Positions 39,805 through 60,514 of a stretch of DNA of 60,825 bases are shown piece after piece. The notes beneath the pieces were generated by a model. It did no database searches. It was given only the letters and a program-made list of their open reading frames with translations, and was not told where the DNA came from. Source of the stretch: Bacteroidales bacterium (GTDB lineage: Bacteria > Bacteroidota > Bacteroidia > Bacteroidales > JAAYJT01); the NCBI GenBank assembly GCA_012522795.1, contig JAAYJT010000054.1:1-60825 (forward strand), written 5' to 3'. Every line of letters starts with the position of its first letter. Within the stretch, counting starts at the first letter, position 1. The translations under genes and the position numbers were made by a program.

Positions 39805-41350
39805 ATGAATATAAGAGAAAAGAAAAACAGATCCGGAAGTGTTAGTATTCAGATTATTAGTAAGGCTCGTGGTCAATATAAGGTTGTTAAAACAATAGGA
39901 AGTGGCGCAGAGCGTCACAAAATTGAAGAGCTTAAAAAAATAGCCAAATAAGAAATAGAAGATTTTAAAAAAACAGCATCTCTGTTTCAACCCAGTGTCG
40001 ATAATCTTGTTGAAGAGGTATTAAGCTCTTTGAGTAATTCTCATATCCGCACTGTTGGACCGGAGTTGATTTTTGGCAAAATCTTCGATTTTATCGGCTT
40101 TGGAGCAATCCGAGGGTCTCATTTCCGACACTTGGTTATAGCTCGTTTGGCCTACCCTTTAAGTAAATTAAAGACAAGTGAATATCTTTATCGTTTTCAA
40201 GGAATTTCTATCGGCACAGGTAAGATTTACCATTTTTTAGACAGGCTTAACAGCCGAGATAAAGAGCAAATTGAACAGAACTCTTTTGCCCATACCAAAG
40301 GTGTATTAAAAGATCGCATCAGTGTTGTATTTTATGATATGACTACGCTTTACTTTGAGGCAAGTGATGAGGATAATTTGTGAAAAACAGGATTTAACAA
40401 AGATGGCAAACACAGTAAGTCTCAAATCATAATTGGGTTATTGGTGGGCTTGAGCGGCTATGCTATCGGCTACGATATTTTTGAAGGCAATACCTATGAG
40501 GGATATACTTTAATTCCTTTTCTTGAAAAAATACAAAATAAGTTTGACATCAGAAAACCAATTGTTATTGTCGATTCCGGGCTTTTATCCAATGATAATT
40601 CACAGGCACTGGAGGACAATGGTTACCAGTATATTATCGGTGCCAGATTGAAAAACGAGAGTCAGTCTATTCAACAGCAAATCATTGCTCAAAATTACCG
40701 ACAAAAGAGTTTTTACAGCTTAAGAAAGAAGGTTAAAATTAATGACCGAACCAGGATAACGCGCCTGATTGCTCATTACTCGGAGAAAAGGGCACGAAAA
40801 GATGTCTACAATCGTAAAAAGGGATTGGAACGTCTGGAAAAGCGTCTTAAATCAGAGAAACTTACAAAATCCAACATCAATAACAGAGGCTACAACAAAT
40901 ATCTCGAAAAAAAAGGCGATATTGAAATAAGTAACAATTATCAAAAATACGAAAAAGATAACCTTTGTGACGGGTTAAAAGGATACATTACTAACAGTAA
41001 ACTTTCTTCAGCTATAGTTTTGAATAATTACGGACAGCTATGACATATCGAGAAGGCATTCCGTATATTAAAGACAGATTTAAGGTCACGTCACATTTAT
41101 AACAGGTTCAGACATCGGATTGAAGCACATTTGTGTATTACATTCACAGCATATGTTGTTTATAAGGAATTTGAAAGAGTATTGAAAAAATGAAGACTCT
41201 GACTTGTCGGCACAAAAAGCAAGTGAAATAACACTTGATATGTATCAACTTACATATCAGCTTCCTGACTCAGGTGAAATTAAAACCTAACTGCTTGAAA
41301 TGGACCAGCAATAGAAAGAACTTTACGAAATTATTAATAGAAATTTTTAG
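39805..41350 (+). pseudogene. IS1634-family DDE transposase, inactivated
   Basis: Begins MNIREKKNRSGSVSIQII and reads through in one frame to position 41184. Catalytic residues can still be seen: D in FYDMTTLYFE, D in IVDSGLLSN and E in HIEKAFRILK. In-frame stops occur at 39949 (TAA), 40381 (TGA), 41041 (TGA), and, after a one-base shift in a run of six A (41185-41190), at 41288 (TAA) and 41312 (TAG); the natural stop is 41348. Each stop can be explained by a single C-to-T or G-to-A change (for example CAA to TAA). The rest is well conserved, so decay seems recent. The element cannot make its own transposase. Confidence 0.85.
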
Positions 41351-50156: not shown

Positions 50157-51359
50157 TCAGTTATTTATAACAATATCGTATGTATCCTTTGCTATCACCA
50201 GTTCCTCATTTGTAGGAACTACCATAACCCTGACCTTTGACTTGTCAGTGGACAAAATAACTTCTTTTGCCCTTAGTCCGTGGTTAAGGTCCTTATCATA
50301 TTCAAGTCCGAGGAAGCTAAGGTTATCCAGTATCTCACTACGGGTTTCATAATCATTTTCTCCGATACCACCGGTAAAAATAATGATATCCAGTCCATTC
50401 ATAGCAGCGGCATATGCACCTATATACTTAATTACCCTGTAGCGATACATTTGTAATGCAACTTTTGCCCGCTGATTTCCTTCTACAGCAGCTTTTTCAA
50501 TATCGCGCATATCTGACGAGATACCAGAAATTCCCAGCATACCACTATGCTTGTTAAGCAATGTGTTTACGGTTGACAGCCCAATATCTTCTTTATTGGC
50601 AATATGCAACACTGCACCCACATCAAGGTCGCCACAACGTGTGCCCATTATCAATCCTTCAAGCGGGGTCATGCCCATACTGGTATCAATAGATTGTCCG
50701 TTTTTAATAGCAGCAATCGAAGCACCATTTCCAAGATGACAGGTTATGATCTTCTGGGTGTTAATATCCACATTCAGCATTTCGCATGCACGCTGTGAAA
50801 CATAACGATGGCTTGAGCCGTGAAAACCATAGCGGCGTATCCTGTATTTATCATATAAAGAATAAGGTATTCCATAAAGATAAATGTAATCGGGCATAGT
50901 TTGATGGTAGGCTGTATCAAACACTCCAACCTGCGGAATATGAGGCAGAAGCCTTGTTATTGAATAAATACCTTCAAGATTTGGCGGATTATGAAGCGGC
51001 GCCAGATCAATACATTCTTCAAGGGCTGACACTACTTCAGGAGTTATCGCAACGCTGCCTCCAAATTTCTCGCCGGCGTGAACCACGCGATGACCAACAG
51101 CATCTATTTCGTTTACATTTTTTATTGAGCCATATTTCTCACTCACCAACACTCCAAGCAGATATTCAATACCTGACTGATGGTCAAGGATTTCACCTTC
51201 GAGTTTTACTTCAACGCCATCGTTGCGCTGATGCTTAATAAGCGAACCCTTCAATCCGATCTTATCTACCAAACCCTTTGCCAGCACAGCTTGCGAGGGC
51301 ATTTCAAAAAGTTGATATTTAATAGATGAGCTACCACAATTCAATACAATAATTTTCAT
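50157..51359 (-). CDS. ackA: Acetate kinase
   Basis: Interconverts acetyl phosphate + ADP and acetate + ATP, the last step of acetate fermentation. The 400 residues begin with the N-terminal motif NCGSSSIKYQL; GHRVVHAGEKFGG, GFHGSSHRYVS and the GGIGEN end motif are in place. It is third in the pta-hbd-like-ackA group; its start lies 44 nt after the dehydrogenase stop. Cytosolic. Confidence 0.97.
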   Translation of the reverse strand: MKIIVLNCGSSSIKYQLFEMPSQAVLAKGLVDKIGLKGSLIKHQRNDGVEVKLEGEILDHQSGIEYLLGVLVSEKYGSIKNVNEIDAVGHRVVHAGEKFGGSVAITPEVVSALEECIDLAPLHNPPNLEGIYSITRLLPHIPQVGVFDTAYHQTMPDYIYLYGIPYSLYDKYRIRRYGFHGSSHRYVSQRACEMLNVDINTQKIITCHLGNGASIAAIKNGQSIDTSMGMTPLEGLIMGTRCGDLDVGAVLHIANKEDIGLSTVNTLLNKHSGMLGISGISSDMRDIEKAAVEGNQRAKVALQMYRYRVIKYIGAYAAAMNGLDIIIFTGGIGENDYETRSEILDNLSFLGLEYDKDLNHGLRAKEVILSTDKSKVRVMVVPTNEELVIAKDTYDIVINN

Positions 51360-51403
51360 AGTCTTTTGGGATTATCTGATAATAAGTTTTTAACAAGAAC
51401 CAA

Positions 51404-52372
51404 CTATTCGCGCCCTAATTTATGGATAGAGCCGCCTTTAACATCTTTCTTTCCATCTGTATATTTATAAAAACCCTCGCCGGTACGTCTTCCCATCATA
51501 TTGGCTCTGACCAGACGCTTAATAATTGGCGATGGTTTGTATTTCTGATCACCGAATTCGGCATACAGATTCTCCATCCATTTCAGGACTTTGTCTAATC
51601 CAATAGAATCGGCCATTTCAAAAGGTCCTTTCATTAAACCGGCAGTTTCCTTCATAATTTCATCTACATCACTAACTGTGGCAACGCCTTCCATTAATAT
51701 TTCGCAAGCTTCATTTATTATTGGAACCAGCATTCTGGTGCTTACATTGCCCGATGATTCATTCACATGTATAAGCTTCCTGCCTATCATCATAGTAAAT
51801 TTTTGTATCAGCTCAACGGTTTTATCGTTTGTAAAAACACTTCTGACCATTTCAATAATCTTAACCCTGTTTACTGAGCCAAAGAAATGAAGTCCTATAG
51901 CTCTTTCGGGATGTTTTAACACCGATGCTATTTCGCTTATCATCAAAGTTGCGGTATTTGATGCTATAACAGTTTCTTCAGATACAACTTCTTCAATGTT
52001 CCTGAATATCTGCTGGCGAAGTTCAAGACTTGTACCTTTCTTCTTGGTATTCACCGTTTCGAGCACTATATCACTGTCACTGATAGCATTATAATCAGTA
52101 GAACCTTTGATTCGTGAAAGTATCAGTTTCTTTTCATTATTGGTCAGACCCCATTTATTGATGCGCTCGTCAAGCAAGCGGTTCATTCTTTCAAATACTT
52201 CATCAATACGTTCCTGGCTGATATCAATAAAAGCTACTTCAATACCCGACTGACTGATGAGTATTGAGATTTCCTGACCCATTGCCCCGCATCCGACTAT
52301 ACCAACTTTTTGAAGAGTTTTTTTGGGCTTGATAGTTCTGCTAAGGCTAAAATCTTCTAATCTGTCATTCAT
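51404..52372 (-). CDS. 3-hydroxyacyl-CoA dehydrogenase family protein
   Basis: 322 residues with an N-terminal NAD-binding fold (VGIVGCGAMGQEISILISQSG at about 23-43) and a C-terminal 3HCDH domain. The best guess is a 3-hydroxybutyryl-CoA-type dehydrogenase. The catalytic-histidine segment GLHFFGSVNRVKIIE keeps the His but has Gly-Ser where Asn-Pro (HFFNPV) is near-invariant, and an insertion-like NR follows; the substrate may therefore differ. It sits between pta and ackA (43 and 44 nt gaps), so it is probably coexpressed with acetate-forming enzymes. Enzyme activity is not proven by the sequence. Confidence 0.82.
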   Translation of the reverse strand: MNDRLEDFSLSRTIKPKKTLQKVGIVGCGAMGQEISILISQSGIEVAFIDISQERIDEVFERMNRLLDERINKWGLTNNEKKLILSRIKGSTDYNAISDSDIVLETVNTKKKGTSLELRQQIFRNIEEVVSEETVIASNTATLMISEIASVLKHPERAIGLHFFGSVNRVKIIEMVRSVFTNDKTVELIQKFTMMIGRKLIHVNESSGNVSTRMLVPIINEACEILMEGVATVSDVDEIMKETAGLMKGPFEMADSIGLDKVLKWMENLYAEFGDQKYKPSPIIKRLVRANMMGRRTGEGFYKYTDGKKDVKGGSIHKLGRE

Positions 52373-52415
52373 ACATTATAAAGTTTAAGAGTTGAATTAT
52401 TATTCATTAATTGGT

Positions 52416-53411
52416 TTAAACAGCCTGAGTGGCAGTTATTGCAACAAGATTTACAATATCACTTACCGAACATCCCCTGCTGAGGTCATTGATAGGAGCT
52501 GCAAGTCCCTGCAATACAGGACCAACGGCTTCAGCACCGGCTAAACGCTGAACCAGTTTGTAAGCAATATTCCCCGATTGAAGATCAGGGAATATCAATA
52601 CATTTGCCCTGCCTGCTATGCTGCTTCCGGGTGCTTTACTTTTTCCGATTGCCTCCACAATGGCTGTATCAGCCTGAAGTTCGCCATCAATCTGAAGCGA
52701 TGGCTCCATCTGTTTTGCAATATTGGTAGCATTTATGACCTTGTCGCATAGCTTGTGTTTTGCTGAACCTTTGGTTGAGAAACTAAGCATGGCAACACGT
52801 GGTTCAATACCTACAATATTACGGGCGGTAGCTGCTGTACTTACTGCTATCTGTGCAAGTTCCTCATCGGTGGGATCGGGATGAACAGCGCAATCGGCAA
52901 ATATCAGCAAGCCATCAGGAACATGCTTGTTGTTTTCAAGAACCATGATGAATGCTCCTGACACAACGCCAATTCCAGGTAAGGTCTTTATTATCTGAAA
53001 TGCAGGACGAAGCACATCGGCTGTGTTGTTGCCTGCTCCGGCAACTTCGCCATCAGCTTCTTTGTTTTTTATTAATAAAGTAGAAAGATATAGGGGATCT
53101 TCCACCAGCTTTTCAGCAGCTTCAATAGTTAAGCCTTTGTTTTTTCTGATCTCATAAAGCATCGCAGCATAATCATGCTTGCGCGGATTGTTCTGAGGAT
53201 CAATAATGGTAGCCTTTGATATATTGTTGAGACCAAAGTCTTTTGCCAGTGATTGAATTTTTTCTTTGTTTCCGAGCAGAATTATTTTTGCAATCTCCTC
53301 ATTTAATAGAATATCAGCAGCTTTTAATGTTCTTTCTTCAGTTCCTTCAGGTAGCACAATTCGTTTTCCGGCTTTCTTTGCCTTGCTCCTGATAGTTTCC
53401 ATTAGACTCAT
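52416..53411 (-). CDS. pta: Phosphate acetyltransferase (short form)
   Basis: Makes acetyl phosphate from acetyl-CoA and phosphate, feeding acetate kinase. At 331 residues it is the short, single-domain form without the N-terminal regulatory DRTGG domains of E. coli Pta. PTA_PTB landmarks include VLPEGTEERTLKAA, EVAGAGNNTADVLRPAFQIIKT and the C-terminal NVLIFPDLQSGNIAYKLVQR with AVGPVLQGLAAPINDLSRG. It is first in a three-gene unit whose -7 element (53467-53474) is TACCTTTG. Confidence 0.94.
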   Translation of the reverse strand: MSLMETIRSKAKKAGKRIVLPEGTEERTLKAADILLNEEIAKIILLGNKEKIQSLAKDFGLNNISKATIIDPQNNPRKHDYAAMLYEIRKNKGLTIEAAEKLVEDPLYLSTLLIKNKEADGEVAGAGNNTADVLRPAFQIIKTLPGIGVVSGAFIMVLENNKHVPDGLLIFADCAVHPDPTDEELAQIAVSTAATARNIVGIEPRVAMLSFSTKGSAKHKLCDKVINATNIAKQMEPSLQIDGELQADTAIVEAIGKSKAPGSSIAGRANVLIFPDLQSGNIAYKLVQRLAGAEAVGPVLQGLAAPINDLSRGCSVSDIVNLVAITATQAV

Positions 53412-53805: not shown

Positions 53806-53879
53806 GGCTCCGTAGCTCAATTGAATAGAGCATCTGACTACGGATCAGAAGGTTACAGGTTTGAATCCTGTCGGAGTCA
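53806..53879 (+). tRNA. tRNA-Arg (anticodon ACG)
   Basis: 74-nt cloverleaf: acceptor stem GGCTCCG / CGGAGTC with one G-U pair, D arm GCTC..GAGC, anticodon stem TCTGA / TCAGA with loop CTACGGA (anticodon ACG at 53840-53842), T arm ACAGG TTTGAAT CCTGT, discriminator A. The CCA end is not encoded (CAC follows directly), so it must be added after transcription. The A34 would need deamination to inosine by TadA to read all CGN arginine codons in part. It has its own promoter and terminator. Confidence 0.95.
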
Positions 53880-53885
53880 CAAAAA

Positions 53886-53981: not shown

Positions 53982-55409
53982 TTAAAAACTGATTTTGCAT
54001 TTCAGTAACACATGATCCTTATCTTTTAACTTCCCAAACATGGTTGAACCTGTGCCATTAATAATACGTGCACCGGCAGTTAATTCCACGCCTCCGGCAG
54101 GCTGATAGGTAACTTCAGGAAGAAGTATCCATGCATATTCATTACTCAGGTCCGACCAGTCGTTAACCTGAATACAGAAGTTAAAAGGAGATATCTTAAG
54201 CTTTTCCTGAAAGACTTTCCAGTCGGCAGCCAGTACAAAATAATCGTTTAGTCCAGCGGTTCCGTTTTCATGGAAAAAACCGTGCAGATACTGGAAATTG
54301 GCATAAATATTATGAGGAAAAGTATAATCAAGCCCCAGCACATATTTAAGGTAGGGTTTGTTATCAATTACTGTTGAATCCATTACCCTTATATTTAGTC
54401 CCATATACCTCATATCCACAGCCATCTGGATTATCTCAGGAAAAAACAAAGCTGCTTCACCCCATACCCCTACTGTTGCCAGCGAGCCGGCAAAATCAAA
54501 TCCCAGAATATTCATACGAGGATATTTAAGCTCTACATCAAGGTTGTAACTCAGAATATTTTTGTCCTGAACACGCTCAACATCGGTAAGATGCGCTTTA
54601 GACGGCGAAGGCATTACATCAAAGCTATGGGCAAAACTAGCTGAAAGATTGAAACTGCCAATATTTAAGCCAGTTCTCAGTCCCATGGTTGATGATTTTT
54701 TAATAGTCTTATCGGGCATCAGGAGAAAATCATCAAAACTTTTATTAATGAGTTTATAGTTTATGCCGTTAAAATCATATTCGTCCGGCATGCTGAACTC
54801 CGGCATAAATGCACTCATCCATTCCATATCCGGTGCCGCCGAAGGAGAAAAAGCAGGTACAAATACTCCCGACACATAGAAATTATTTTTATAGTAGGTA
54901 AGTTTAGCACTATTCGACGAAAGATGCCTGCCAAAATCCCAGATATCTTCAAGGTCGTAAGGGTTTATATTATCCGTGGGGTTTAAACGATCGGCAGTAC
55001 CCCATGCAATACGCTGCTTCCCTATCCTCAGATCTAAACCTTTTGCAAAAATATCATACACTTCAAACCATGCTTCACGAAGTTCCACATCAGTGAGAAA
55101 TGTCTTTTTTCTGTCGCTTAGCTGGGTGTACGATGTAATGCTCCCTCCCGGCATGCTCCTGACCCATATTTCGCTGCTGAATGCAGTTCTTCTTGTTTTT
55201 ACCGAAGGTTTAAGTGACAGGCGATACTCCTGAAACATCATCTTTTTATTTGGCGATGTAACTCCAAAACGATCATCGGAATAAAAATATCCATCCCAAT
55301 TCAGGTTTTCAAGCACTGAACCAAAGTAGTCGCTAGCGCCACCGTATTCCTGAGCAAAACCAAAGATTTGCAAACCAAGCCACAGCAGTAGTAAAAATAT
55401 TCTTTTCAT
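53982..55409 (-). CDS. DUF1302-like outer-membrane beta-barrel protein
   Basis: 475 residues: signal peptide (about 1-19, ending IFGFAQ), then alternating amphipathic strands ending with an aromatic-rich C-terminus (LLKCKISF, terminal Phe), as expected of an outer-membrane barrel. The segment LREAWFEVYDIFAKGLDLRI..GKQRIAWGTADRLNPTDNINPYD is typical of DUF1302-type proteins that accompany MMPL/RND transporters. It is the last gene of the tetR-RND-LolA-like unit; a gap of 124 nt precedes it. Probable outer-membrane exit or acceptor of the exported substrate. Confidence 0.8.
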   Translation of the reverse strand: MKRIFLLLLWLGLQIFGFAQEYGGASDYFGSVLENLNWDGYFYSDDRFGVTSPNKKMMFQEYRLSLKPSVKTRRTAFSSEIWVRSMPGGSITSYTQLSDRKKTFLTDVELREAWFEVYDIFAKGLDLRIGKQRIAWGTADRLNPTDNINPYDLEDIWDFGRHLSSNSAKLTYYKNNFYVSGVFVPAFSPSAAPDMEWMSAFMPEFSMPDEYDFNGINYKLINKSFDDFLLMPDKTIKKSSTMGLRTGLNIGSFNLSASFAHSFDVMPSPSKAHLTDVERVQDKNILSYNLDVELKYPRMNILGFDFAGSLATVGVWGEAALFFPEIIQMAVDMRYMGLNIRVMDSTVIDNKPYLKYVLGLDYTFPHNIYANFQYLHGFFHENGTAGLNDYFVLAADWKVFQEKLKISPFNFCIQVNDWSDLSNEYAWILLPEVTYQPAGGVELTAGARIINGTGSTMFGKLKDKDHVLLKCKISF

Positions 55410-55533
55410 TTTATTTTTGCTTTAATATTACGAACACAAAACTCTACCTTGATATATATAATATGCTTCAAGAAATCATAATATAGTTTGTATAACTATC
55501 TAAATATTCAAATTCGTAACATATCAATATGCT

Positions 55534-56277
55534 TTAACGCATTAGATAACGTTCAGTGAAAACATCATCATTAATGCCTATATCGAATTTCACATTAGTG
55601 ATCTCCATTTTTGTAGATGTTTTGGTTTTAAGGTCGGTCATCTTAGTTTGACGTGCGAGCCAATATTCACCTGTTTTCTGAATATTACTGCTTTCAAGGG
55701 TTTTAACCATTACTCCGGCCTTATCAAAATATGCGATCTTAACCGGATAATTATCGCTGCGGCGTATTGTCATATGCAGTTTGGTATAATCTGTTCTGAT
55801 CCCGTCTTTCGGAATAAGTTCCAATACCCAGTTATCGTTATTGGTTTCAATAAGCTCGGGGTCATATCTCTCTGTATAGCGTTTTGCTTCCATATCTTCG
55901 TAGGTATAGTCAGTTCCGGCAAATTTTGTATTTTTGACATGCCCTCCCACCTTACGAGTTTTACGATAGGCAGGCATATACAAAGTAAGATTATCGCCTG
56001 GTAGCGATAAGAATCCTATTCCTTTCTGATCCGCAGGAGCCAGAAACTTAACTATACGCTTATCACTACCTTTCTGTAGCATGGTAAGTTCACGTGTGCT
56101 TTCATTTCCTCTGCGGTCAACAATATAGGTTACCACAGTAAGACTCTGATCTTTTGGTGCATTAAGCATATTGTCAACATTTTGCAAAATTTGCATTGCA
56201 TCTTTCTGACCCATTGTAACACCATGGATCATTATAAACACAAGAATCAAGGATGATAAAACAAGGTTCTTTTTCAT
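55534..56277 (-). CDS. LolA-like outer membrane lipoprotein-sorting protein
   Basis: 247 residues: signal peptide (about 1-23, ending HGVTMGQ), then a LolA-like unclosed beta barrel with DQSLTVVTYIVDRRGNE, a GSDKRIVKFLAPADQKGIGFL lid region and KFAGTDYTYEDME. Relatives annotated as outer membrane lipoprotein-sorting proteins are usually encoded with RND/MMPL exporters and probably carry a hydrophobic molecule across the periplasm. It starts 24 nt after the transporter stop, so both are in one transcript. Confidence 0.88.
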   Translation of the reverse strand: MKKNLVLSSLILVFIMIHGVTMGQKDAMQILQNVDNMLNAPKDQSLTVVTYIVDRRGNESTRELTMLQKGSDKRIVKFLAPADQKGIGFLSLPGDNLTLYMPAYRKTRKVGGHVKNTKFAGTDYTYEDMEAKRYTERYDPELIETNNDNWVLELIPKDGIRTDYTKLHMTIRRSDNYPVKIAYFDKAGVMVKTLESSNIQKTGEYWLARQTKMTDLKTKTSTKMEITNVKFDIGINDDVFTERYLMR

Positions 56278-56301
56278 TTCTTCTAAGATTTTAAATGGTT
56301 A

Positions 56302-58533
56302 TTAACTATTTTTCTTTGGTTTATTATTCACTCTGAAAATTTTTATTAATACAGGAAGTAGTGTAAGAGCACTTATGCCGGCGCAAAGCATACTTACTGA
56401 AAATAGGATGCCAAACTGCTGCAATGGGATCAGGTTTGCAAAAAGCAATACCAAAAATCCTGCAATGATCGTAACTACATTTATCACTATAGCCTTACCT
56501 GAAGTGGCAAGGGTTTTTGATACAGCTTCTTCATAAGTGGCTCCCTGACTTATGAACCTTTTATATGCAGTGGTAAAATGTATGCTGTAGTCAATTCCAA
56601 TACCTATTGTTATTCCGGCTATCAGTAATGTTGCGATATCAAGCGCGATCCCTGTATATCCCATAAGGCCAAAAACCATAAGCATTGAGAAAAACAGAGT
56701 ACTGAAACCTGCGATGGCTCCTTTTACTGAACCAATCAGGAATATCATGGTGGTAAACACAAAAATAAATGCAAGCAACATACTCTGCAGCAGGTTGTTC
56801 ATCATGCTGTCGCCCAGCTTTGAATAAATAGCCTGCATACCTGTAGCCTGCATTTTACCCGGATACTGTTTTACATAATATTCAATTTTATCATAGATAT
56901 CATGCATTGATCTTGCATCCATATTTTTCATGCTTGCATACACAACAACTTCATCCATTTCGTAATTCACCATCTGCTGCATCATTTCCTCCCCTTCGAG
57001 CATAAACCAAAGATTCTGTATTTTCTCTCTCGAATCGGGGATTTGTTTCCCCTCGCCCATTGCTTCGTTAAGGCGCATAATATATTCTGCCAGCGATCTT
57101 GAATTTGACAGCCCATCAATTGATTCAAGAAATGTTGCGGCTTCATTTGCCAGCAACAGGGTTGAAGGGTCAAAGACATCTCCGCTTATCCTTATCATTA
57201 CAGGCAATGAACCACCAAAACTTTTATTCATGATATTTGAAGACTGCCTCAGTGATGATGAAGGTTTGAAATATTCAAGAATATCCACCTTACGTTCTAT
57301 TTTCGGGATTCCGGTAAAAGCTGCTATTGATAATATAATACTCAGAGTAAGAATAATTCCCGGACGCTTAATTATTAAATTCCTGAATGGGTTAGTTATC
57401 AGCTCAGGGAGTTCGCTCTCGCTGGTTTTACCCGGGAACTTCTTAAAAAAAGAAGCCCATGCAGGAATAAAGGTAATAGATAAAACCAGAATTATCAGAA
57501 CACCTGCTGCTGCAAAAATCCCAAAATCCCGGATAATAGTAAGATAAGAGCTGAAGACGAACGAGAGAAACCCTGCAAAAGTAGTTACTCCGGCAAGTAT
57601 AACTGCCAGAGAAATATCTTTAACCGCATTTATAAGCGCTTCTCTGGTATTTTCTTTTCCGGGGACATTAAGCCGTATGGCATTTACCACATGTATTCCA
57701 TATGCACTGCCAACAGCAAAAAGTACTACCGGAAGTGCGTCGGAGATGGGCGTAAGTGCAATGCCGCTGAAACTCATCAGAGCCATCATCCATGTTATGC
57801 CTATACCAACAGTAACCAGTGGTAAAACAACCCATTTAAAAGAGCGGAATCCAATATACAGCATTATTAGAATCACAATAATAATAAGAGGAGTAAGTAA
57901 TAGCAGATCCTGAACTATAAAATCCATTATGGATAATACCTGAAAAGGAATTCCCTCAAAATATACTTTCTGAGATATATCAAAATTCTTTACCAGATCC
58001 TTTATTTCTCTGGCTATCGAGTTTTTGTCATAGTCAGCGCTTATCTGGCATACTATTAATGTATGTTTACTGTCTTCTGAAACCAGATGCTTATAAAGTT
58101 TCTGACCCAAAACGTATTGTTTCAGTTGTTCAAGTTCTTCATTGGTTGAGGGCAATTCGTACTCATCAATCAGTCGTCCAATTTCAAAACCAAATTCATC
58201 TGTTCGTATATCCAGAATATTTGTAAGGCTAACAACATAATCAATGCCTTCAAGCCTTTGTAGTTCCTGACTTAACAAACTTATCTCCTCAAGATTTTCT
58301 TTGGTAAAAACTTCAAGACTTTCAAGTATCAGTACAGCTGTCCAGCTTGATGAATATTCCTGGCTTATATCGTTGAACAACTTCACCGAAGGGTCATCGG
58401 CAGGCAGATAGGTAGTTACATCACTGTTGATCTCAATTTTGCGCAGCTCCCAGGCTGAGATCAAAGTGAGTATTATAGTTATTACTATAACCGCAATTCG
58501 GTGTTTTAGAATAAATGTAGTAAGCTTTTTCAT
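56302..58533 (-). CDS. RND superfamily (MMPL-type) transporter
   Basis: 743-residue inner-membrane exporter with the doubled RND layout: a helix, a large periplasmic loop (about 35-215), five helices, a second half starting with a helix near 390 and a second loop, and five more helices. The ILILVLSI and GIGIDYSIHFTTAYKRF segments are typical of MMPL/HpnN-like sterol- and lipid-exporting RND proteins. I chose the ATG at 58533; the start at 58566 lies upstream of the -7 element at 58552-58559 and gives a leader peptide without family support. No membrane-fusion protein is present; the LolA-like protein may play that role. Confidence 0.9.
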   Translation of the reverse strand: MKKLTTFILKHRIAVIVITIILTLISAWELRKIEINSDVTTYLPADDPSVKLFNDISQEYSSSWTAVLILESLEVFTKENLEEISLLSQELQRLEGIDYVVSLTNILDIRTDEFGFEIGRLIDEYELPSTNEELEQLKQYVLGQKLYKHLVSEDSKHTLIVCQISADYDKNSIAREIKDLVKNFDISQKVYFEGIPFQVLSIMDFIVQDLLLLTPLIIIVILIMLYIGFRSFKWVVLPLVTVGIGITWMMALMSFSGIALTPISDALPVVLFAVGSAYGIHVVNAIRLNVPGKENTREALINAVKDISLAVILAGVTTFAGFLSFVFSSYLTIIRDFGIFAAAGVLIILVLSITFIPAWASFFKKFPGKTSESELPELITNPFRNLIIKRPGIILTLSIILSIAAFTGIPKIERKVDILEYFKPSSSLRQSSNIMNKSFGGSLPVMIRISGDVFDPSTLLLANEAATFLESIDGLSNSRSLAEYIMRLNEAMGEGKQIPDSREKIQNLWFMLEGEEMMQQMVNYEMDEVVVYASMKNMDARSMHDIYDKIEYYVKQYPGKMQATGMQAIYSKLGDSMMNNLLQSMLLAFIFVFTTMIFLIGSVKGAIAGFSTLFFSMLMVFGLMGYTGIALDIATLLIAGITIGIGIDYSIHFTTAYKRFISQGATYEEAVSKTLATSGKAIVINVVTIIAGFLVLLFANLIPLQQFGILFSVSMLCAGISALTLLPVLIKIFRVNNKPKKNS

Positions 58534-58551
58534 ATCATCAGAAATTGACAG

Positions 58552-58559
58552 CAAAAATA
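58552..58559 (-). promoter_or_regulatory. -7 element of the RND transporter operon
   Basis: Minus-strand TATTTTTG fits TAnnTTTG; transcription would start near 58545, about 12 nt before the ATG. The candidate operator at 58567-58591 covers its -33 region. Confidence 0.5.
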
Positions 58560-58566
58560 ATACCAT

Positions 58567-58591
58567 TTGACCAAAATAGATTAATGGTCAA
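58567..58591. promoter_or_regulatory. Candidate TetR operator TTGACCA-N11-TGGTCAA
   Basis: Seven-base perfect inverted repeat with an 11-base spacer placed over the presumed -33 region of the RND operon, directly between it and tetR. A related site, TTTGAC-N10-GTCAAA, lies before tetR at 59339-59360. Repression by the TetR protein is inferred. Confidence 0.45.
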
Positions 58592-58608
58592 TAAAATAAT
58601 TTAAAAAA

Positions 58609-58632
58609 AATGTTAAATAGCTATTTAACATT
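58609..58632. promoter_or_regulatory. 24-bp perfect palindrome between tetR and the RND gene
   Basis: AATGTTAAATAG followed at once by its exact complement. On the minus strand it lies 28 nt after the tetR stop and is followed by a T run, so it could be a weak tetR terminator; being a perfect dyad in a regulator-target gap, it could equally be an operator. Confidence 0.5.
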
Positions 58633-58660
58633 CAATTCTCAGGCTGATAAATTCTCGGGA

Positions 58661-59260
58661 CTATCTTTTATTTATGCCGTTTAGAATGATTTGAAGAAAG
58701 AAATCAATTTTTTTCTCAGTTTTCTTTACATCGGCTTCCAAAGTCCACTGGTATTCAAACCCTTTTATTGCCAGCAATAAACCACTTGCAGCAAGCGAAG
58801 CATCTTCAATCTCGAAAATCTCTTTTTCAATCCCATAGTCCAGAATGGCAGTTATCATGTTAATTTCTTCTTTATCATATCTTTCGCGAAATTGCATTAA
58901 AAAGGCATAATGCTCATAATATTCTTTCTGGAAAGCTGTATAAAAATTTGCCAGATGCTGAAAAAGACCAATACGTGTTAATACGTATGATTTGAGCTTT
59001 GCTGCTGGCGCAGTTTGTTTATTAACAGCATTTATCAGTTCATTTCTGAAAATATCAGCTTCATCTTCTATAACTGCTTCATAAATCTCTTCTTTACTGC
59101 TGAAATAATAATAAAGTGCGCTTTTAGCTTTATTAATTCTTTTGGCAATATCATTCATTGTGGTCTTTTTCAAACCATATTGCCTGAAGACTTCACGGGC
59201 ACTTTCAATTATAAGTGGCTTTAAATCTTTTCCCTGTTTCTCTGAACTATCTTTTTTCAT
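58661..59260 (-). CDS. TetR family transcriptional regulator
   Basis: 199 residues. The N-terminal helix-turn-helix is clear (GLKKTTMNDIAKRINKAKSALYYYFSSKEEIYEAV, about 28-62), followed by a helical ligand-binding domain rich in aromatic residues (LANFYTAFQKEYYEHYAFL), which would suit a hydrophobic ligand. It lies just upstream of the RND operon on the same strand, separated by 127 nt that contain two candidate operators, so it is probably the regulator of the export system, perhaps sensing its substrate. Confidence 0.9.
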   Translation of the reverse strand: MKKDSSEKQGKDLKPLIIESAREVFRQYGLKKTTMNDIAKRINKAKSALYYYFSSKEEIYEAVIEDEADIFRNELINAVNKQTAPAAKLKSYVLTRIGLFQHLANFYTAFQKEYYEHYAFLMQFRERYDKEEINMITAILDYGIEKEIFEIEDASLAASGLLLAIKGFEYQWTLEADVKKTEKKIDFFLQIILNGINKR

Positions 59261-59338: not shown

Positions 59339-59360
59339 TTTGACCACATCCTCAGTCAAA
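59339..59360. promoter_or_regulatory. Inverted repeat TTTGAC-N10-GTCAAA upstream of tetR
   Basis: Perfect six-base arms. The left arm context TTTGACCA is identical to that of the candidate operator before the RND gene (58566-58573), so it may be a second TetR site for autoregulation. Spacer lengths differ. Confidence 0.35.
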
Positions 59361-59743: not shown

Positions 59744-60514
59744 ATGCTGATATGCATGCATAATTATAACCATAGCGAAAAAGCAATTGAAAAATCACTG
59801 ATTTTACGAAGTCTGATTTGGCCTGCTATTTTTGTGGCTATCATCTGGCTGGTAAAAGTAGTTGAAACTCTGACAGATACAAGTTTCGCTCAATATGGTA
59901 TGAAGCCAAAAGAATGGCGAGGACTTATTGGTATTTTCACCTATCCTTTTCTTCATAAAGATTTCAGTCATCTGAGTTCCAATTCCCTTCCATTGCTATT
60001 TCTGGGAGTTGCTTTGTTTTATTTTTACCGTAAAACCAGTTTTATTATCTTTATTCAGTTATTCATTATTTCAGGATTCTGGCTCTGGCTTTTAGGAGAA
60101 TATAGTAGCATTCATATTGGAGCCAGCGGTTTGGTATACGGACTAACAGCCTTTCATATCACTGCAGGACTAATAAAGAAAAACAAGAATCTACTGGCTT
60201 TTGCACTACTTGTGTTATTTCTTTATGGAAGTATGGTATGGGGGCTTTTTCCTGATTTTTTTCCAAAACAGAAAATTTCATGGGAAGGTCATCTTATGGG
60301 AATGCTGGCCGGTATTGCCCTGGCATGGTATCATCGTGATAAAGGACCACAGCGTGATCGCTACCAGTGGGAATGGGATGAACTTGAGGAAGCCGATGAG
60401 GATGATGACTCAGATATAAATCCAGATGGCAGCACTGGAACTTATTACTACTCAAACACCACTGCCATAGATCCGGATAAGAATACTGATACTAATCCGC
60501 ATTCAAACCTGTAA
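59744..60514 (+). CDS. Rhomboid family intramembrane serine protease
   Basis: 256 residues with about six membrane helices. The rhomboid active site is intact: S128 in GASGLVYG, H183 in EGHLMGMLAG, and the HxxxN pair H76-N80 in SHLSSNSLPL that stabilises the oxyanion. It therefore looks catalytically competent and would cleave single-pass membrane proteins within the bilayer. After the last helix there is an acidic tail of about 50 residues (EEADEDDDSDINPDG) with no known domain. An alternative start is the ATG at 59756. It stands alone; substrates are unknown. Confidence 0.9.
   Translation: MLICMHNYNHSEKAIEKSLILRSLIWPAIFVAIIWLVKVVETLTDTSFAQYGMKPKEWRGLIGIFTYPFLHKDFSHLSSNSLPLLFLGVALFYFYRKTSFIIFIQLFIISGFWLWLLGEYSSIHIGASGLVYGLTAFHITAGLIKKNKNLLAFALLVLFLYGSMVWGLFPDFFPKQKISWEGHLMGMLAGIALAWYHRDKGPQRDRYQWEWDELEEADEDDDSDINPDGSTGTYYYSNTTAIDPDKNTDTNPHSNL

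Follow-up and report, generated by a model that had tools for sequence, protein, structure and literature searches.

The window, a 60,825-nucleotide stretch of DNA from a Bacteroidales bacterium that represents contig C25 of a 2.88-Mb genome (97% complete, 100 contigs), carries a four-gene unit that probably serves, under TetR control, to export a hydrophobic and probably acylated lipid. Open reading frames (ORFs) and Pfam matches place the genes on the minus strand in the order regulator, pump, carrier and barrel:

58661..59260, minus strand, TetR-family regulator, 199 aa (TetR_N, 1.5e-16, Pfam)
56302..58566, minus strand, MMPL/RND inner-membrane pump, nearest HAE3, 754 aa (MMPL, 1.5e-47, in two stretches)
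55534..56277, minus strand, LolA-fold periplasmic carrier, 247 aa (PF17131, LolA_like, 1.7e-50)
53982..55409, minus strand, outer-membrane beta-barrel of the DUF1302 family, porin/AlgE-like, 475 aa (DUF1302, 1.1e-6)

The gaps between these genes measure 94 bp (TetR-RND), 24 bp (RND-LolA) and 124 bp (LolA-barrel). A preliminary description of this DNA had already placed an RND exporter, a LolA-like carrier, an outer-membrane barrel and a TetR regulator in one unit, and all four genes were found at these positions. Its statement that a membrane-fusion protein (MFP) and TolC are missing also agrees with the ORFs and Pfam matches, which include neither between the TetR gene and the tRNA-Arg gene downstream of the unit; such partners were not sought elsewhere in the genome.

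The grouping of these genes does not reflect chance alone, because the LolA, TetR and barrel genes recur in the pump's run in most related loci. A profile built from nine pumps yielded at least 574 confirmed stretches in named genomes, and the best 80 by score, which are not a random sample, were kept. With a same-strand run defined by gaps of up to 300 bp, and with many contigs ending early, the pump's run holds a LolA gene in 73, a TetR gene in 65 and a barrel gene in 58 of the 80 loci; among the 38 uncut runs the counts are 35, 32 and 34. At three loci (L148, L164 and L176 in our numbering) a second, neighboring RND gene was taken as the focal pump in these counts. Most of the 80 loci belong to metagenome-assembled genomes of Bacteroidales or other Bacteroidota, and Bacteroidales records are also the window's closest named matches among those listed in the pump survey. 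The composition and order of the cassette recur across phyla; the other records are from Spirochaetales, Pelobacter, another deltaproteobacterial record, Cloacimonadota, WOR-3, Marinimicrobia, Latescibacterota, Chlorobiota and some records labelled Bacillota. A pump search of 60 genomes (this genome and 59 relatives) gave some match in 43, with a best match above 350 bits in 11, this genome included.

The preliminary description had suggested that the neighbors in related genomes be surveyed for lipid-synthesis genes, and this survey was positive, with such genes in 35 to 37 of the 80 related loci. Neighbors were grouped into nine families, whose names rest on one representative each (Pfam, NCBIfam). 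Anywhere in the 80 loci, these include patatin-like genes (31), PlsC-like acyltransferases (28), GT2 (20), short-chain dehydrogenases/reductases (SDR; 13), GNAT (11), 3-ketoacyl-ACP synthase III (KAS III; 9), GlsA-type acyltransferases (7) and methyltransferases (7). A strict lipid set, consisting of the PlsC-like, GlsA-type, KAS III, serine palmitoyltransferase (SPT) and patatin-like families, accounts for 75 of the 257 non-core genes inside the pump's run versus 10 of the 523 outside it, and is present in the run in 35 loci. For all nine families, the corresponding numbers are 124/257 and 17/523, with 37 loci carrying one or more families in the run, 28 two or more and 24 three or more. Since the loci are related to each other, p-values for this in-run enrichment are only a guide. 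The count of 37 still includes a fourth SPT candidate, at L180, which was rejected as it is Kbl; the strict count of 35 leaves this gene out.

The individual loci point to lipids of several kinds. SPT genes score above the cut-off of 640 at L140 (676 bits) and L146 (658 bits), and below it at L106 (553 bits). L140 also carries KAS III, acyltransferase, CDP-alcohol phosphatidyltransferase and UppS-family genes, and an SDR gene whose best family is 3-ketodihydrosphingosine reductase, below cut-off (321 vs 400). In SPT loci of relatives that lack the cassette, cassette-type GNAT and SDR genes lie beside SPT in 5/17 and 6/17 cases, respectively; therefore the tie of these two families to sphingolipid loci is supported. 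At L178, RND and LolA genes are followed by a cysteate synthase gene (487 vs a cut-off of 324.9), while the GlsA-type acyltransferase at L118 just exceeds its cut-off (261.5 over 260). In Marinilabilia salmonicolor (L137), the unit itself includes GNAT, SDR, acyltransferase, patatin-like and GT2 genes. In Tannerella forsythia (L150, 7383-14399), a TetR gene, an unnamed gene without a Pfam or NCBIfam match at the thresholds used, a DarB-type ketosynthase gene and the RND, LolA-like and barrel genes stand in a row. The synthase belongs to the StlD/DarB subfamily (527 over 450) and scores 548.3 vs 550 for DarB itself, suggesting a possible link to dialkylresorcinol export. At L053 (825-12107, G034:C46), RND and LolA genes share a strand with genes for an acyl-CoA ligase, an SBF-family transporter and ether-lipid enzymes, namely a geranylgeranylglyceryl phosphate synthase (GGGPS; 213 over 161.6) and a geranylgeranyl reductase (194 over 158.8), together with a UbiA-type prenyltransferase that is below cut-off (189 vs 269). 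Ether-lipid genes of the archaeal type thus occur, at L053, in a relative from the same order as the window organism.

The distribution of these genes was compared with a pump tree of 95 rows, made by a quick method, in which the lipid label was set for L103 to L182 only; 13 added rows and the window were labelled "none", despite an acyltransferase remnant at L048 and the ether-lipid genes at L053. The label requires 20 changes on this tree, compared to 29.4 for shuffled labels, and at least 18 of these changes are forced by well-supported branches. As judged from the pump sequences, the link to lipid genes is clustered on the tree yet was gained or lost many times. With so many forced changes, it does not represent one inherited cluster.

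Joint action of pump and carrier is best supported by natural gene fusions in two distant genomes. One is a single protein of 1026 aa (L056:1962-5039; RND at 9-744, LolA at 777-1023), the other a protein of 1044 aa (L114:9941-13072; RND at 30-765, LolA at 814-1042). These fusions suggest that an RND pump may pass its cargo directly to a LolA-fold shuttle. The window carrier has a hydrophobic segment at its N-terminus, and its predicted model (pLDDT 92.7) matches Porphyromonas gingivalis LolA3 (9tp6), 3bk5, a DUF1329 protein (4z48) and NE2245 (3buu) at query TM-scores of 0.75 to 0.84. In the same list, canonical LolA entries reach only 0.39 to 0.47 and P. gingivalis LolB reaches 0.59. Although the fold resembles the DUF1329 structure 4z48, the window carrier has no Pfam match to DUF1329 at E-values up to 1. 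The barrel, which ends in Phe, matches DUF1302 at 28.4 bits (cut-off 23.2) along just some 60 of the profile's 541 positions. Its model (pLDDT 81.5) shows a porin-like barrel fold that aligns over about 280 to 340 residues (Z about 20 to 22) with MOMP, chitoporin, OprD-family porins and the alginate exporter AlgE. None of the 50 matches listed per fold search was a FadL- or LptD-type barrel, which excludes nothing, and the predicted porin fold says little on the cargo.

The best NCBIfam family for the pump is TIGR00921 (HAE3), with 282.7 bits against a cut-off of 351.9 that is not reached. In the alignment of the 95 pump rows, an Asp-Tyr pair is conserved in the pump's second half, with Asp659 found in 93 rows, and the matching position in the first half is Ala in 87 rows. 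From this asymmetry we infer a one-sided proton relay. Because 67 of these rows begin at codon 12 (base 58533), with 26 beginning further upstream, the true start of the pump gene is probably 58533 rather than 58566.

Three features in the intergenic DNA could contribute to regulation of the unit:

58567..58591, putative TetR operator TTGACCA-N11-TGGTCAA, 25 bp, 34-58 bp before the likely pump start
58609..58632, minus strand, perfect 24-bp palindrome followed by a minus-strand T run, possible tetR terminator
59339..59360, second dyad TTTGAC-N10-GTCAAA, upstream of tetR

In 65 TetR promoters and the gaps after them, all five-base dyads were counted, with 30 mononucleotide shuffles as control. 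TTGAC-N15-GTCAA was found in 11 loci and TGTAC-N15-GTACA in 9, and no dyad exceeded 6 in the shuffles. Dyads of T/A runs, for which mononucleotide shuffles are no control, are as frequent or more so (TTTTT-N16 in 22 loci, TTTTA-N14 in 11). At 16 other spacings, TTGAC dyads occur in 0 or 1 locus each. Over 82 loci (1.25 Mb), there are 33 exact sites of the dyad. Of these, 29, spread over 24 loci including the window, coincide with the start of a TetR or pump gene or lie up to 112 bp ahead of it; the remaining 4 lie within genes. The dyad is a motif that could be used to find further cassette copies. The second dyad is weak because its spacing is unlike the conserved one. The palindrome was missed by a terminator scan that requires G-C pairs. 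A promoter scan was uninformative (20 matches versus 23 in shuffles), and the operator pattern occurs genome-wide at 4 places compared to 5 for a reversed control, which allows no statement on a regulon.

Taken together, these features suggest a route in four steps. A hydrophobic inducer would release TetR from the 25-bp dyad that precedes the pump gene. The proton-driven, HAE3-like pump would then take the lipid from the inner membrane by means of the Asp-Tyr pair in its second half and, as in the fused proteins, could hand it directly to the LolA-fold carrier, which would replace an MFP. From the carrier, the lipid would reach the porin-like DUF1302 barrel, which would release it into the outer membrane or through it. 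Relatives would couple the same export line to differing lipid-synthesis genes.

A number of results weigh against lipid export by the window unit. No lipid-synthesis gene adjoins it, and the lipid path proposed in the preliminary description is thus strengthened by the related loci but not by the neighborhood of the window copy. None of the nine families is found in the pump's run at 43 of the 80 loci. The window pump groups with L103, L104 and, on a long branch, L150 from Tannerella, and does not fall within the main clade linked to lipid genes; L103 and L104 (the latter a 3.6-kb contig), to which it is most closely related, have none of the nine families adjoining. Among 17 SPT and 12 cysteate synthase loci of relatives, several on short contigs, none of the 29 has a pump, carrier or barrel gene of the cassette at a distance of up to about 10 kb. 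Co-occurrence across the 60 genomes, comparing the 11 with a pump match above 350 bits to the remaining 49, was also not significant (p 0.23-0.31 across the three tests) for cysteate synthase (4/11 vs 9/49), SPT over cut-off (1/11 vs 15/49) and GGGPS (9/11 vs 31/49). In its fold, the barrel is similar to porins for water-soluble molecules. Finally, AmeABCD of Castellaniella defragrans, which combines an HAE3 pump with a DUF1302 protein and a LolA-superfamily carrier, has been described as a system whose loss reduces both growth on monoterpenes and tolerance of them (PMC6394551).

The main rival explanation is accordingly that the unit provides inducible, AmeABCD-like efflux of toxic hydrophobes such as terpenes, bile-like acids or foreign fatty acids, with TetR as the toxin sensor. 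Small hydrophobic molecules are common ligands of TetR regulators, no synthesis genes accompany the window copy, and a gene of the SBF (bile-acid symporter) family lies on the same strand at L053, all of which would fit such a role. The repeated acyltransferases, ketosynthases and SPT in the units of relatives would, however, be unexpected for a detoxifier, and the window unit has no AmeC-like gene, as no extra ORF of at least 80 aa was found on the cassette strand between TetR and the tRNA. We consider efflux of toxins unlikely.

Lipid uptake or retrograde transport, rather than export, could be suggested by the porin-like barrel, by the patatin-like genes counted above and by a phospholipase A1 (PLA1)-like protein in a sister cassette of this genome, which could free acyl chains at the outer membrane. 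Synthesis genes in the units of relatives suggest an outward direction, however, and AmeABCD and HpnN are described as outward movers (PMC6394551), which makes inward transport very improbable. Equally improbable is a Lol-like route for lipoprotein sorting with the RND pump replacing LolCDE: the carrier has a LolA fold with P. gingivalis LolA3 as top match, and PF17131 is named "outer membrane lipoprotein-sorting protein", but the window unit contains no LolCDE or LolB genes (ORFs, Pfam), the carrier reaches only 20.4 of 83 bits for the LolA3 equivalog, and a sorting route accounts for neither the RND partner nor the lipid-enzyme inserts. In addition, LolA3, which has a hydrophobic groove, is described as binding LolB only very weakly in P. 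gingivalis, and its deletion in Flavobacterium johnsoniae gave no phenotype (PMC11885536).

Lipid export therefore remains the favored role of the unit, and the lipid genes of this genome bear on its possible cargo. The preliminary description named no cargo for this organism, and this caution is justified by a window copy that has no lipid gene beside it. Its comparison with sterol and hopanoid systems (HpnN, BstABC) was not supported: the pump scores 140.9 bits against a cut-off of 751.85 and 81 against 1100 for HpnN families, and 56.5 of 1400 bits for BstA, and the 97%-complete genome has no match to the squalene/hopene-cyclase family PF13243. A sphingolipid made by SPT was also rejected as cargo here; no SPT over cut-off is present in this genome, and its two matches are Kbl (632.5 over 460) and an unassigned enzyme of the 8-amino-7-oxononanoate synthase (AONS) type. 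The genome encodes a cysteate synthase (464 vs a cut-off of 324.9) and a PlsC-like homolog (C55, 39% identity), which, like the AONS-type enzyme, are on contigs other than that of the cassette. Sulfonolipid is one cargo candidate in this organism. In a wider reading, which is conceivable but distinctly tentative, TetR-RND-LolA-DUF1302 would represent a general, cargo-swappable route for lipids from the inner to the outer membrane in Bacteroidota and other diderms, with sphingolipids, sulfonolipids, glycine or glycolipids, dialkylresorcinols and isoprenoid ether lipids as cargoes; in the window organism, whose genome has a cysteate synthase, the cargo would then be a sulfonolipid-like lipid.

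A second cassette lies on C87 of this genome (L014:196-6272) and comprises TetR, RND, the PLA1-like outer-membrane protein, LolA-like and DUF1302 barrel genes; the PLA1-like protein would also fit a lipid cargo. The PLA1-like protein, encoded between pump and carrier, scores 22.5 bits (9.4e-5), which is under the cut-off of 27, and contains an EHHSNG stretch; the carrier of this cassette matches DUF1329 (43.9 bits, cut-off 23.1). A third MMPL gene, on C53, has no cassette partners. A small cupin gene (Pfam) lies between TetR and pump in a C87-like cassette (L063:2329-2664), with similar small genes seen by eye at L062 and L066. A DUF2141 protein is encoded within the unit at L168:12987-13430 (Pfam), and look-alike gene models were noted by eye at L054, L056 and L065. 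In the window, the unit is bordered upstream by a divergent rhomboid-family gene (start at 59744) and downstream by the tRNA-Arg gene (53806-53880) on the opposite strand, beyond which lie pta, a 3-hydroxyacyl-CoA dehydrogenase gene and ackA. The latter three genes (50157-53411) share one strand and resemble an acid-fermentation set. A short ORF at 40441-41040 resembles, by eye, a transposase fragment.

Transporters that carry bacterial sphingolipids between membranes are stated as not known (PMC11087976; PMC11324152), and an Lpt-like set has been suggested for Caulobacter (PMC11324152). The cassette represents a concrete, deletable candidate in Bacteroidota for a sphingolipid-type transport step, based on its compact set of genes, its own regulator and the SPT, 3-ketosphinganine-reductase-like, cysteate synthase and DarB-type neighbors in relatives. 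If true, a cargo-swappable line would be a transport step of the type that these papers describe as missing for bacterial sphingolipids. A literature search, mainly of open-access papers without preprints, found no description of the cassette together with lipid genes.

Among known systems, HAE1 tripartite drug pumps require an MFP and a TolC-type channel, which were not found in the window unit and not sought elsewhere in the genome. The Lol lipoprotein system differs by its LolCDE and LolB partners and by the LolA3 equivalog, none of which was found in the window unit. HpnN shares the RND superfamily and a suggested lipid-moving role, but is described as functioning without co-transcribed periplasmic or outer-membrane partners (PMC6394551); as shown above, pump score and genome content also separate it from the unit. 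BstABC of Methylococcus capsulatus likewise combines an inner-membrane RND protein with periplasmic and outer-membrane-associated parts beside synthesis genes, but BstC contains a helical, TPR-like substructure, as opposed to a barrel here, and the paper does not use the word LolA (PMC10942540). In F. johnsoniae, the LolA-fold protein LolA2 and its partner LolB2 belong to a locus for flexirubin, a lipid pigment, and are proposed to carry the pigment or lipoproteins of the locus (PMC11885536); LolA2 was found as a homolog of Escherichia coli LolA, whereas the carrier here is a PF17131 protein, a comparison made by description only. Operons of P. gingivalis (PG1175-81) and Prevotella intermedia, which are strongly raised under iron scarcity, also bring together TetR, MMPL pump and LolA-like genes, but include ABC ATP-binding proteins as well; the likeness is again one of description (PMC10434189).

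AmeABCD, which the preliminary description did not name, is the closest characterized system and keeps a role in detoxification open. Its authors single out an HAE3 pump lineage with such partners (PMC6394551), and, as in the window unit, no classical MFP or TolC is described in the cassette. The two differ in the carrier, as AmeB is a DUF1329 protein of 451 aa and the window carrier a PF17131 protein of 247 aa, and in AmeC, which has no counterpart here; conversely, the TetR gene with its conserved dyad and the lipid enzymes in relatives set the present unit apart from AmeABCD. The kind of system is thus already known, and the additions made here are the PF17131 carrier, the TetR regulator with a conserved dyad, the pump-carrier fusions and the links to lipid genes.

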